From positions 62,001 to 126,000 of the forward strand of contig NZ_LTAZ01000004.1 of the NCBI RefSeq assembly GCF_001593955.1: 64,000 nt of DNA, given 5' to 3'. Position numbers and translations under genes: made by a program. The notes below the pieces were generated by a model. That model was not told the DNA's origin. It made no database searches and saw only the letters and a list, made by a program, of their open reading frames with translations. Shown one piece after another: positions 44,348 through 48,112 of the stretch (positions within the stretch are counted from its first letter, which is position 1; each line of letters begins with the position of its first letter). This DNA comes from Halalkalicoccus paucihalophilus. GTDB lineage: Archaea > Halobacteriota > Halobacteria > Halobacteriales > Halalkalicoccaceae.

Positions 44348-45807
44348 GCCTCGCGGTCCAGTTGGGGATCATCGTCGGCTACCTGATCCTCGCGCTGCTG
44401 ATCGGGGTCGCGGCCTATCGGCTGACGGATCGGACCGCCGAGGACTACTACCTCGCGAGTCGGACCCTCGGCACGGTCGTGTTGCTGTTTACGACGTTCG
44501 CGACCCTGCTGTCGGCATTCACCTTCTTTGCCGGACCCAACACCGCCTACCGGGAGGGTCCCGAGTGGATCCTCGTCATGGGCGTCATGGACGGGGTGAT
44601 CTTCGCCGTCCTCTGGTATCTGGTGGGATACAAACAGTGGCTCGTCGGGCGCGAACACGGTTACCTCACGCTCGGGGAGATGTTGGGCGATCGCTTCGGG
44701 TCGGATCGTTTGAGAGGGCTCGTCGCCGGGATCAGCCTCTTCTGGCTCTTCCCGTACGTGATGCTCCAGCAGATGGGCGCGGGTACCGCGCTCACGGCGC
44801 TGACAAACGGTGCGGTGCCCTACTGGGCCGGCGCGGGCCTGATCACCGTCTTCATGATCGTCTACGTCGTGCTCGCGGGGATGCGTGGGGTCGCTTGGAC
44901 CGACACGCTCCAAGGCGCGTTCATGCTCGTGACCGTCTGGGCGGCTCTGTTCTGGATCCTCGCCGTCGCCGACGGCCCGTCGGCGGCGACCGCCGACCTC
45001 GTCGGCGTCGCTCCCGAGTTCACGGCGCTGGGTGGCGATTTCTACACCCCGGCGTTCGTCGTCACGCAGGCGGTCAGCATCGCCTTCGGGGTGGCGATGT
45101 TCCCGCAGGTCAACCAGCGCTTCTTCGTCGCCCGGTCGAGGACAGTGCTCAAGCGTACCTTCGCGCTCTGGCCCGTGCTCGTCCTTGCCCTCTTCGTCCC
45201 CGCGTTCATGCTCGGGGCGTGGGCCCGTGGGCTCGGGATCGAGGCCGCTCCGGGCGCGAACGTCCTGCCCCTGTTGCTCGCGGAGTACACCCCGGTCTGG
45301 TTCGGGGCGCTCGTGATCGCGGGGGCGGTCGCCGCGATGATGTCCTCTTCGGACTCGATGCTGCTGTCGGGCTCGTCGTACTTCACGCGCGATATCTACC
45401 GTCCGTTCATTAACCCTGAGGCCACTGAACGGCGCGAGGACCTGCTGGGGCGCGCCGGGGTGGTCGTCTTCGCGACCGGGGCCTTTCTCGCGAGCCTCCT
45501 TCGGCCCGGAACCCTGTTGGAGATCGGCGCGACCGCTTTCGGCGGGTTCGCCCAGCTCGCGCTCCCGGTGATCGTCGCGCTCTACTGGACGGGGACGACC
45601 CGGGCCGGGATCACCGCCGGAATCGCCGGGAGTCAGGCGTTCTACCTGGCGAGCGTTTTCCTCCCGTTCGTGCCGACCGCCTACGGAGGGTGGGGCGCGT
45701 CGCTGTTCGGGATGGCACTCGGACTGGCGTTGACCCTCGGCGTCTCGTGGCTCACGACGTCCGCCCCTGGCGAGCGACGGGCGATCTACTTCGAGTTCGC
45801 GGACTGA
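44344..45807 (+). CDS. Sodium/solute symporter (SSF family) partnered with DUF3311
   Basis: 487 residues from GTG 44344 (MSLAVQLGIIVGYLILA). YRLTDRTAEDYYLASRTLGT (about 24-43), then FFAGPNTAYREGPEWILVMG and MMSSSDSMLLSGSSYFTRDI near 340 are SSF core motifs. With its DUF3311 partner, resembles monocarboxylate/pantothenate-type permeases. Overlap with the small gene implies a two-component unit. Substrate inferred only. Confidence 0.88.
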   Translation: MSLAVQLGIIVGYLILALLIGVAAYRLTDRTAEDYYLASRTLGTVVLLFTTFATLLSAFTFFAGPNTAYREGPEWILVMGVMDGVIFAVLWYLVGYKQWLVGREHGYLTLGEMLGDRFGSDRLRGLVAGISLFWLFPYVMLQQMGAGTALTALTNGAVPYWAGAGLITVFMIVYVVLAGMRGVAWTDTLQGAFMLVTVWAALFWILAVADGPSAATADLVGVAPEFTALGGDFYTPAFVVTQAVSIAFGVAMFPQVNQRFFVARSRTVLKRTFALWPVLVLALFVPAFMLGAWARGLGIEAAPGANVLPLLLAEYTPVWFGALVIAGAVAAMMSSSDSMLLSGSSYFTRDIYRPFINPEATERREDLLGRAGVVVFATGAFLASLLRPGTLLEIGATAFGGFAQLALPVIVALYWTGTTRAGITAGIAGSQAFYLASVFLPFVPTAYGGWGASLFGMALGLALTLGVSWLTTSAPGERRAIYFEFAD

Positions 45808-45841
45808 GAAGCCTTAACTGCGCCGGCGAAAAAACGGGGGT

Positions 45842-45991
45842 ATGGCATCATTCGAGACGGCGGAACGCCGGACCCTGCACAAACAGATATGTATGAAGTG
45901 TAACGCGCGAAACCCACAGGACGCCGACCGCTGCCGGAAATGCGGCTACGGGAAGCTCCGCGCGAAGGCCAAGGAACGCCGTAGCGTCTAG
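45842..45991 (+). CDS. rpl40e: Ribosomal protein L40e
   Basis: 49 residues ([20 protein letters not shown]). The zinc ribbon is CMKC (17-20) and CRKCG (32-36) with the basic tail [10 protein letters not shown], identifying L40e, the small LSU protein. It lies 34 bases after the SSF stop and is short enough to be missed by automatic calls. The hairpin array begins 27 bases after its stop codon. Confidence 0.92.
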
Positions 45992-46017
45992 AAACGGACC
46001 TTTTTCGTCGTCGGGTG

Positions 46018-46210
46018 TCCTCGCACGCCTGCGGCGTGCTGCGGGCACCACTCCTCGAAAAATCTCCTCCATTACCAGAACGCGAAACGTTCTGGTTAGC
46101 AGCCAGAAACCTCCGGTTTCTGGCGACATCGCAGGAGCTTCGCTCCTGCTAGCTACCGGACGCCGCTGGCGTCTGGTAACGAAAAACTGGCGCGGCGGAG
46201 CCGCGCCAGT
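46018..46210. repeat. Array of six different hairpins
   Basis: Six stem-loops follow one another with 4-7 base spacers (35 bases after the first). Stems: 46023-46039 (6 bp, loop CTGCG), 46074-46096 (9 bp, loop CGAAA), 46102-46124 (10 bp, loop TCC), 46131-46149 (8 bp, loop TTC), 46154-46178 (11 bp, one G-T, loop GCT), 46186-46210 (11 bp, loop GGA). The last five stems end in CCAG/CTGG-like or GCAG/CTGC tips but differ inside. No open frame. Not CRISPR. Confidence 0.8.
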
Positions 46211-46295
46211 CCTCCCGTTATTTAGTCAGTAGTTGTAGCTCCCTGCGCTCTCGGACCGAAACGCACTTTTGAGCGACGGAGAGAGGAGAGTATGC

Positions 46296-46380
46296 GCGAG
46301 GGTGGCTGAGCTTGGCCAAAAGTGGCGGGCTTAAGACCCGCTCCCGTAGGGGTTCGAGGGTTCAAATCCCTTCCCTCGCA
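46296..46380 (+). tRNA. tRNA-Leu (TAA)
   Basis: 85 bases, class II. Acceptor GCGAGGG (46296-46302) with CCCTCGC (46373-46379), discriminator A46380. Anticodon stem GCGGG/CCCGC with loop CTTAAGA and anticodon TAA at 46332-46334. A variable arm (TCCCGTAGGGG) follows, and the T-arm carries GGTTCAAATCC. No encoded CCA, no intron. Confidence 0.97.
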
Positions 46381-46425
46381 TTTTTCCTCTCGAACGGACG
46401 TGAGAGTCGTGAAAATCGGACTGAA

Positions 46426-46493
46426 GGATTTGAAGTACGGGACGAGTGAGCGAAGCGAACGACGTTCAGGTGATTCAAATACCTTTCCTCGTA
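46426..46493 (+). repeat. Decayed copy of the tRNA-Leu 3' tail closed by an inverted repeat
   Basis: 46472-46493 matches the last 22 bases of tRNA-Leu (46359-46380) at 18 of 22 positions. GGATTTGAA (46426-46434) can pair with TTCAAATAC (46474-46482), 8 of 9. The interior has GAGTGAGCGAAGCGAACG. Same layout as after tRNA-Val at 2630-2697, where the copy is exact. Looks like an old attachment-site duplicate or a tRNA-tail-linked hairpin element. Confidence 0.7.
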
Positions 46494-46504
46494 TCTATAC
46501 GTTC

Positions 46505-46948
46505 TTAGCCGATTCTGAACCCGACTCCGGCAGGAGATCGACAACCGTCCTCAAGCTTCTCCACTCGAAAGTAATCGGAGCCGTACGATTTCAGATCTAG
46601 ACCGAACCAGACGCTGTCGTCTTCGTGTGCGCATTCGACCCTACATAGAGGGACATCGACCGTTCCGCCGTCGACCGTAAGTTCGATACGAAACGTGTAC
46701 TCGTTATTGGCACGGATGTCGTGTCTCTCCTCGATAATATCGACGTACTCATCGTACTCGGCCGGCAGCGTGAAACCACTGCTGAACCTGCTCTCGTGCT
46801 CAAGTAGTTCGAACTCTACTTCGTGGGCCTGATCAGTGAAATTGAACATCGTGAACTCGATCGGCACCGGACGCGTTACCGTCACACATCCAGATAGACC
46901 AAGAGCTGTGACACCGGATATCGAAGCGAGAAAACGGCGTCTATTCAT
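46505..46948 (-). CDS. Putative lipoprotein, unknown function
   Basis: 147 residues from MNRRRFLASISGVTALGLSG followed by Cys, a Tat lipobox; 21 more residues upstream are unlikely. Mature part is beta-rich (PIEFTMFNFTDQAHEVEFEL) and contains LCRVECAHEDDS. Base composition is clearly AT-richer than the surroundings, including the promoter (TTTATTAAATATTTG). Not recognised. Together with the tRNA-tail copy, this suggests acquisition by transfer. Confidence 0.65.
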   Translation of the reverse strand: MNRRRFLASISGVTALGLSGCVTVTRPVPIEFTMFNFTDQAHEVEFELLEHESRFSSGFTLPAEYDEYVDIIEERHDIRANNEYTFRIELTVDGGTVDVPLCRVECAHEDDSVWFGLDLKSYGSDYFRVEKLEDGCRSPAGVGFRIG

Positions 46949-47146
46949 GTAAATACCACGGTAATTAAACACATAAATTTTATTAAATATTTGCGTAGAG
47001 GTCGTAGTCACGGTGGCCTGTCAATAACACACCCCCTTACTCTACGAGATGTCCGGTGTTCTCCGGCTAGTCGGTAATAGGGAGGCGACCCGTACTCACG
47101 ACTATACTTCCGCTGCAGACCGATGGGACCTACACCTTCGTGAGGG

Positions 47147-47306
47147 GTGTCCGTCCTCCTGCTGCTCGCCGGTTCGACGAGCTACTGGCCCTACATCGAC
47201 GGGACGAACCGAGGAGTCGACCGCGCACCGGGGTCTGCTGGGGGTGCTCCCCGGACTGGTCGTCCTCGGGGTCTATCTCTTGAAACGCCCCGCTGGCCTC
47301 GATTGA
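47147..47306 (+). pseudogene. Frameshifted remnant of a small membrane protein
   Basis: GTG 47147 opens a frame reading SVLLLLAGSTSYWPYIDGTN. From about 47216 the sense continues in the +1 frame as STAHRGLLGVLPGLVVLGVY and ends LKRPAGLD then TGA at 47304-47306. The two parts together make one plausible hydrophobic protein with a single frameshift in the GTCGACCGCGCACC region. The upstream 47050-47146 shows no further credible coding. Confidence 0.45.
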
Positions 47307-47327
47307 TCCGTCCAACGACGTGGCGGA

Positions 47328-47356
47328 CCGGCGCGCTTCGCCGCGCCGGCTTTTTT
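47328..47356 (+). terminator. Terminator-like hairpin with a T run
   Basis: CCGGCGCG (47328-47335) and CGCGCCGG (47342-47349) form an 8-bp stem with loop CTTCGC, then C and six Ts. Intrinsic-terminator shape for plus-strand transcription coming from the frameshifted remnant. Belongs to the same short-loop palindrome style as the 46-kb array. Confidence 0.5.
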
Positions 47357-47381
47357 GGAGGGGATTTTTACGGCTCGGGTT

Positions 47382-47409
47382 TCCTCGCACGCCTGCGGCG
47401 TGCTGCGGG
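47382..47409. repeat. Second exact copy of a 28-base hairpin module
   Basis: Identical over 28 bases to 46018-46045. Contains GCACGC/GCGTGC arms with loop CTGCG. Both copies lie within 1.4 kb, on either side of tRNA-Leu, in the same orientation. Upstream of this copy GGGGATTTTTACGG resembles the inverse of CTCGAAAAATCTCC next to the first copy. Confidence 0.75.
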
Positions 47410-47431
47410 AACCGCTCGCCGCAAAAAGGCC

Positions 47432-48112
47432 CTAGAATAGGAGTTCGTCGTCGTTTTCGACCATGTACAGGGTACGCGCGGAGATATTTACTGCGTGATC
47501 GCCGACGCGTTCGAGGTCCCGGATGGTCAACAGGAGCCGGGAGACGTCCTGAAGCATGTTCTCCACTTCCTCTTCGTCGGTACCGTCGCCGAGTTCCGTC
47601 TCGATCAGGTCCCGGACGACGACTTCGCTCGCGCGCTCACAGCGTTCGTCGAGGTCGTCGTCTCGCTGTGCGATCTCGTAGCAGGCCGCGACGTCCTCGT
47701 GGGCGTAGGCGGCAAGCGACGCCTCGATCATCTCCAGTGTGACCGACCCGATCCCCTGGACGTCGACGTCGGGATAGAGGTTCCGGGTCGCCTGCTTAGT
47801 GTAGTTGCCCAGATTGGTCGCGAGGTCGGCGATACGTTCGAGATCGGTGATGATCTTGAACGAGGCGGCGATGAAGCGCAGATCGCCCGCGACGGGCTGT
47901 TGGAGCGCGATCAGGTCCGTACACTCGCGTTCGAGTTCGAGATACATCTCGTTGACCTCGGCGTCGCGGGTGATGACCTCCTCGGCGAGCTCCTCGTCCT
48001 TGTCCTCCAATGCCGCAAGCCCCATCCGTAGGCGTTCTTGGACGACTTCGCCCATGTAGAGGACGTCTTCGCGCAACGCGTCGAGCTTCTGTTGGTATTC
48101 CTTCCGTGCCAT
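47432..48112 (-). CDS. phoU: Phosphate transport regulator PhoU
   Basis: 226 residues, two three-helix bundles. Two metal-binding motifs of the DxxERIxDxA/N type: ITDLERIADLATNLGNY (about 89-105) and IRDLERVGDHAVNISART near 195. Represses Pst activity or signalling when phosphate is ample. Last gene of the pst operon, 2 bases after pstB. Confidence 0.94.
   Translation of the reverse strand: MARKEYQQKLDALREDVLYMGEVVQERLRMGLAALEDKDEELAEEVITRDAEVNEMYLELERECTDLIALQQPVAGDLRFIAASFKIITDLERIADLATNLGNYTKQATRNLYPDVDVQGIGSVTLEMIEASLAAYAHEDVAACYEIAQRDDDLDERCERASEVVVRDLIETELGDGTDEEEVENMLQDVSRLLLTIRDLERVGDHAVNISARTLYMVENDDELLF

Follow-up and report, generated by a model that had tools for sequence, protein, structure and literature searches.

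A probable REP-like double-hairpin repeat dispersed through Halobacteriales, with two copies between rpl40e and tRNA-Leu of Halalkalicoccus paucihalophilus

Introduction

Tagged palindromes of the REP type have been catalogued in bacteria. The CGTC-tagged REPs, which include RPE-4 and RPE-6 of Rickettsia and dRS3 of Neisseria, come from five bacterial phyla, with no archaeon named, and are hairpins with 8–9 bp stems starting with AT, loops of 4–5 nt, the tag CGTC (or TGTC, CCTC) at the outer end, and the inner tail CCA (Di Nocera et al., 2013, PMC3733652). They are mostly head-to-head dimers in which the two stems often differ, and clusters are rare; with no known transposase, the class is a puzzle. 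GTAG-tagged REPs form pairs and mosaics (BIMEs) with constant linkers, their palindromes are kept by complementary changes, and they have a cognate tyrosine transposase, RAYT (PMC2817692, PMC3733652); the archaeal Y1 proteins reported are of the IS200 type only (PMC6006769). The palindromic elements of Rickettsia (RPEs) make up ten families of about 150 bp that are inserted in frame in unrelated genes (PMC10969869, PMC3733652). Mitochondrial repetitive hairpin-forming and double hairpin elements are found in both spacers and genes, as single, double, or multiple hairpins whose types differ by a few complementary substitutions; for those of Allomyces, no flanking duplication is reported (PMC2800124).

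Here we describe a row of hairpins between rpl40e and tRNA-Leu of H. paucihalophilus. We think it probable, with roughly three chances in four, that this row contains a non-autonomous palindromic repeat, dispersed in Halobacteriales and present here twice, whose unit is a head-to-head pair of tagged, REP-like hairpins. We found no earlier description of this unit in haloarchaea in the open-access literature, and one may exist elsewhere.

Results

Six hairpins stand between rpl40e and tRNA-Leu

The window that we analyzed is a stretch of 64,000 nucleotides of the H. paucihalophilus genome. The features of the rpl40e–tRNA-Leu region are as follows.

45842..45991, plus strand: rpl40e (ribosomal protein L40E, 49 aa), an open reading frame named from its sequence
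46001-46063, no strand assigned: H1 palindrome, imperfect, TTTTTCG..CGAAAAA with H1 inside, from folding; outside the units
46023-46039: stem-loop H1
46071..46127, minus strand: first unit, nearest rpl40e (H3-TGCTA-H2), 57 nt, by direct reading
46074-46096: stem-loop H2
46102-46124: stem-loop H3
46128..46180, minus strand: second unit (H5-AGCTA-H4), 53 nt, by direct reading
46131-46149: stem-loop H4, tip GCAGG..CCTGC
46155-46177 (46154-46178 including an outer T-A pair): stem-loop H5
46181..46210, minus strand: H6 with a T-run (46181-46186) 3' of it on this strand, by direct reading; outside the units
46186-46210: stem-loop H6
46296..46380, plus strand: tRNA-Leu (TAA anticodon), from ARAGORN and Rfam RF00005

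A preliminary description of this DNA had reported six stem-loops within 46018-46210, and direct reading confirmed all six. Tips of the CCAG/CTGG type, which it had attributed to the last five hairpins, are present in H2, H3, H5, and H6 and are replaced by GCAGG..CCTGC in H4. It had overlooked the plus-strand spacers, which are conserved, alternate as TAGCA / GACATC / TAGCT, and define the repeat unit considered below.

We counted hairpins with loops of 3–5 bases and at most one G-T pair in 46018-46215 (198 bp) and in 2000 dinucleotide shuffles at four stem cut-offs. The numbers were 6 for stems of at least 6 bp (shuffles: mean 0.55, maximum 4), 6 for at least 7 bp (0.18, 3), 5 for at least 8 bp (0.05, 2), and 4 for at least 9 bp (0.01, 1), so that the row was far denser than same-composition shuffles at every cut-off. 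Within the window, for which density was computed, this interval is the peak and nowhere else comes close. Folding of 46000-46230, another check that had been proposed, gave z scores of −9.7 for the plus strand and −9.3 for the minus strand, and none of 200 shuffles was equally stable.

H2–H5 are two copies of one two-hairpin unit

With the rpl40e–tRNA-Leu gap as query, contig C5 of the organism's own genome gave a 59-bp match at 90%, in an array of eight hairpins with differing stems and alternating spacers of the types TGCTA-like and GATGTC/GATGTG. Because the C5 array and the minus strand of the window show the same order of hairpins and spacers, we defined the unit as GTC-hairpin-TGCTA-hairpin-GAT; it is 47–59 nt long, mostly 57 nt, and its stems vary yet stay paired. 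In its general form, the unit consists of two short hairpins with different stems and a TGCYA joint; the first hairpin is preceded by the tag GTC, and the second is followed by GAY. H2–H5 (46074-46177) are two copies on the minus strand, in the order TTTTTCGT-H5-AGCTA-H4-GATGTC-H3-TGCTA-H2-AATGGAGGAGATTTTT, and the first unit reads GTC-GCCAGAAACC gga GGTTTCTGGC-TGCTA-ACCAGAACG tttcg CGTTCTGGT-AAT.

Searches with the joint motif CTGCTAACC mostly matched unrelated sequence, no more often than a control did, and we therefore chose a covariance model. This model, R1, was built from six seed units of the organism's own genome, of which the window supplied two and the C5 array four; an alignment that was misaligned at one end (A2) was left out of the modeling. 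The first and second units score 74.6 and 61.8 bits, values that are not independent evidence because both units are seeds of R1. Independent support for the first unit comes from a 90% match at C5:376761-376819 and from the same order of parts at other loci, and a relative of the second (ACCAGACGCC agc .. GCAGGAGC) opens two arrays, L210 and L212, in the congeneric genome G006.

Simple tandem duplication and a CRISPR array had both been dismissed in the preliminary description, rightly in our reading: units of one array share spacers and differ in their stems, and the constant and variable parts are reversed relative to CRISPR, the spacers being constant and the hairpins variable.

The H1 palindrome and H6 with its T-run are terminator-like flanking structures rather than units. 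A hairpin followed by a T-run occupies the place of H6 in syntenic relatives, array-bearing and array-free alike, and related H1-type palindromes persist in relatives lacking the array, where at least one of the two flanking structures is retained. Further copies of the H1 palindrome lie at 47366-47426 of the window and at C4:132379. Palindromes of the TTTTTCG..CGAAAAA form, with a changing small hairpin inside, constitute a second dispersed palindrome that is often found beside units (L009 and L010 among others).

The same gap is filled in some relatives and empty in others

Orthologues of rpl40e are present in 7 of 7 congeneric genomes, and in 6 of these the gene adjoins tRNA-Leu, the order being lost in G003. 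The preliminary description had suggested inspecting this gap in relatives. It is filled in G000 and G001, by different units, and empty in the other four syntenic genomes (G002, G004, G005, and G006), with the flanks joined as TTTTTGGAGGAGATTTTT in G002 and G006. We infer mobility from the contrast between filled and empty species, with no transposition event seen directly; four lineages could, in principle, have lost the array instead.

Insertion of palindromic miniature elements, one of the explanations offered earlier, agrees with the filled and empty sites, the dispersed copies, and the in-frame copies described below, whereas the nesting that it had included does not, since whole units are joined and the spacers are constant. 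A MITE is a poor match: the unit has two separate hairpins and no long terminal repeats, and no target duplication is visible at the radB insert or at the rpl40e–tRNA-Leu site. Recombination between similar flanks may be another way in which whole arrays spread: the G006 arrays L210 and L212 are near copies of each other. Their differences include uncompensated changes, which speaks against strong selection for pairing once a unit has been inserted.

The unit is widespread in Halobacteriales

With R1, whose E-values are rough, the organism's own genome gave 45 matches at E ≤ 10 (both strands counted) and about 20 places at E < 0.001; unrelated hairpin pairs may be among the weak matches. Congeneric genomes had 10–52 matches each at E ≤ 0.1, and short arrays are frequent in the genus. 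Across the order Halobacteriales, 112 of 195 sampled genomes were matched at E ≤ 1e-5. A phylum-wide sample of 197 genomes contained 25 positive ones, all in the same order, and gave no match in the outgroups, whose base composition was not matched and may differ. The number of hairpins per genome, by sequence pattern, ranged from 0 to 57. Phage records gave no match to the unit, and a plasmid search gave one short match, in Halocatena salina.

Matches in other genera are not simply any two hairpins, because the tag, stem type, and spacer order are all the same. Copies outside the genus occur in a similar T-run setting, and many copies of the unit lie just 3' of genes and beside T-runs. Hairpins of a further type, CGAGACGCC..GGCGTCTCG and CGAAAGGCGC..GCGCCTTTCG, with GTCGTT/AACGAC ends, often frame the unit in these other genera (loci L064, L065, L066, L220, L221, and L229, near position 1501).

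Units occur in frame within genes

The radB gene of the organism itself contains an in-frame 57-nt unit, equal to 19 codons (NTGLQNDPVRSQKSVISDD). When the RadB protein minus this insert was searched against 40 genomes, 37 matched, and the organism's own radB was split into two matches at the insert. All 12 relatives read at that place lack the insert and differ there by a few residues.

The 19-codon unit apparently also sits in frame at two positions of tnpB: in L046 and L047 about 19 codons of unit follow SES and none follow GSP, whereas in L068 and L219 the unit follows GSP and none follows SES. This is a comparison of homologues rather than of one site over time, as the tnpB copies differ and belong to different genomes. 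The 3' part of tnpB, in which the guide RNA of tnpB elements is expected, contained units at several places (L046, L047, L068, L186, L208, and L219).

The hairpin pairs could be ends or guide-RNA parts of IS200/IS605 (tnpA/tnpB) elements, the array being a remnant; many units do lie within tnpB of several genera, and two abut a Y1 gene (in G056 and G067). We regard this as the least likely of the explanations considered: tnpB copies have the unit at one place and lack it at the other, units are also found between genes, in radB, and in a gene resembling a histidine kinase, and G001, G002, and G003 each have 16–18 R1 matches (E ≤ 1e-5, counting both strands) with no match to Y1_Tnp (PF01797) in assemblies that are 95–97% complete. 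Carriage by IS elements may nevertheless help the unit to travel.

The histidine kinase-like open reading frame, named by eye, is at L081 (G040:C1:2971816-2971866, near position 1501), where repeated SVEHGSTSSR blocks are encoded by successive hairpin pairs.

Stems change on both sides and stay paired

In an alignment of 90 R1 matches, which was fitted to the structure and includes related sequences and opposite-strand readings of some places, 98.2% of stem cells were paired, double-sided changes affected 374 cells compared to 104 in shuffles, and the covariation score was 0.589 compared to 0.194 after shuffling, falling to 0.113 or less when the partner was slid by 1–3 columns. A pattern derived from previously seen units with the inner NN left free, RYCRGAANNCNNNGNNTTCYGRY, had 555 matches in 195 genomes, whereas the reversed control pattern had 4; among the matches listed, from which the first places per genome gave 75 distinct ones, the free bases were both complementary in 55, against a chance expectation of about 1 in 16. 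Comparisons between similar units, which are mutually dependent, showed 949 double-sided and 181 single-sided changes. Thus, most stem changes are double-sided, the opposite of the variation without compensation that the preliminary description had named as contrary evidence.

The same type of stem is found with many different loops, some of them reverse complements of each other; with the direction of the unit fixed, the loops of its first hairpin included TCC, GGA, TTC, and GAA, 8 times each. Among 1382 stem cells of 74 best-strand units, 10 were G-T and 17 were A-C; single-step intermediates are therefore rare, and neither strand is marked as RNA.

A structured RNA would account for some of these observations. 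If the unit acted in the transcript, as a 3' UTR stabilizer, processing site, or terminator, pairing would be under RNA selection, in keeping with the very stable fold on both strands, the many double-sided changes, and the many copies right after genes beside T-runs. We nonetheless judge it unlikely, given the lack of any sign of wobble intermediates on either strand, the in-frame copies within genes, the uncompensated differences between L210 and L212, the absence of the array from 4 of 6 syntenic relatives, and the lack of an Rfam match; an Rfam scan of 45700-46600 at the gathering score detected only the tRNA. Nor do the data support the dedicated multi-stem RNA suggested earlier for the locus: the array is absent from the same relatives, Rfam gave no match, and G-T pairs are not in excess over A-C.

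Conservation is far higher in the outer stem bases and spacers than in the inner bases and loops, as might be expected of hairpins or tips kept because a nucleoid protein, topoisomerase, or repressor binds them; E. coli BIMEs are bound by gyrase and IHF. Copies do lie between genes, as such a DNA site might. An essential site would hardly be expected to be patchy between close species or to range from 0 to 57 hairpins per genome, however, and we consider protein binding very unlikely as the explanation.

Discussion

The dispersed-repeat interpretation rests on dispersal, presence and absence at one locus, short chained arrays, 19-codon blocks in genes, changes of both arms, and loops in both directions. 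Of the kinds described so far, the CGTC-tagged REP comes closest, and the unit appears to work like one. Both are short tagged hairpins with complementary stem variation, frequently positioned after genes, and both have copies that keep the frame of genes, some of which serve DNA repair; the genes are radB and tnpB in the present case. CGTC REPs are mostly head-to-head dimers, and the units described here are all such pairs, the model having been built on pairs. CGTC REPs have no dedicated transposase; for the unit, a search confined to Y1 found none in G001–G003.

The details diverge in part. Among 74 units, the left tag was TGTC, often seen in CGTC REPs, in 41, CGTC in 5, TGTG in 15, TGTT in 7, and other in the rest, and the right tag, as the reverse complement, was CATC in 51 and CGTC in 5; exact CGTC on both sides is thus a minority form. 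The first hairpin starts with GC in 42 units, GT in 20, AC in 9, and AT, the start in CGTC REPs, in only 1. Stems are mostly 8–10 bp and loops mostly 3 nt instead of 4–5 nt. At the inner end, where CGTC REPs have the tail CCA, the joint is TGCTA in 36 of 74 units and TGCCA in 7 of 74, and arrays are frequent in the genus, whereas CGTC REPs rarely cluster. Because the unit departs from the CGTC class in loop length and stem start and agrees with it only partly in tag and tail, we have not filed it as a member.

Other systems share fewer traits. Like GTAG REPs, the unit has paired and mosaic hairpins, constant linkers, and palindromes kept by complementary changes; it lacks the GTAG tag, its outer ends being GTC/GTG/GTT and GAT/AAT/GAC, and no counterpart of the RAYT transposase was found with PF01797 in the carriers G001–G003. 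It resembles the RPEs in its in-frame palindromic inserts in unrelated genes, and differs in being archaeal and about 57 nt, or 19 codons, long. Mitochondrial hairpin elements are similar in arrangement and in complementary stem substitutions; unlike the unit, they are organellar and have no common tag and spacer order shown (PMC2800124).

As a dispersed repeat, the unit would spread as DNA that is selfish or neutral, and its copying would involve a single-stranded or fold-back step that both needs the hairpin and restores it. Placement beside T-runs between genes would probably do little harm, and a unit can sit within a gene because 57 nt keeps the frame and an open reading frame is present. 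Because G001–G003 carry units and no Y1_Tnp match, a Y1 (IS200/RAYT-type) enzyme is seemingly not required, and mobilization by Y1/RAYT is not supported by the distribution. We propose more tentatively, at odds somewhat short of even, that the unit represents an archaeal REP-like double-hairpin class that spreads without a Y1/RAYT transposase and whose copying rewrites both arms and can invert the loop, so that copying itself, instead of RNA selection, would preserve pairing.

The unit would be a widespread archaeal counterpart of the tagged bacterial palindromes. With its filled and empty sites, its 19-codon gene inserts, and carriers in which no Y1 transposase is detectable, it would offer a second system in which to seek the copying mechanism, in an order some of whose species are genetically tractable. 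Hairpin pairs and odd 19-residue inserts, which might otherwise be annotated as structured RNAs or real parts of proteins, would also find an explanation.

Several minor observations were made at individual loci. L179 (G001:C1:344310-344551) is a very long inverted repeat with 58-bp arms, a 3-base loop, and several hairpin stems, and at L058 (G000:C1:71264-71327) about six hairpins, spaced by TGCCA and GACGTT, lie immediately 3' of a dnaK-like gene, named by eye. In the window, the 3' end of tRNA-Leu (46361-46381) is repeated at 86% identity 113 bp downstream, at 46474-46494, and G+C is lower across 46001-48000; together these perhaps mark an old integration site. Partial copies of a like kind follow tRNA-Leu in L171 and L172.
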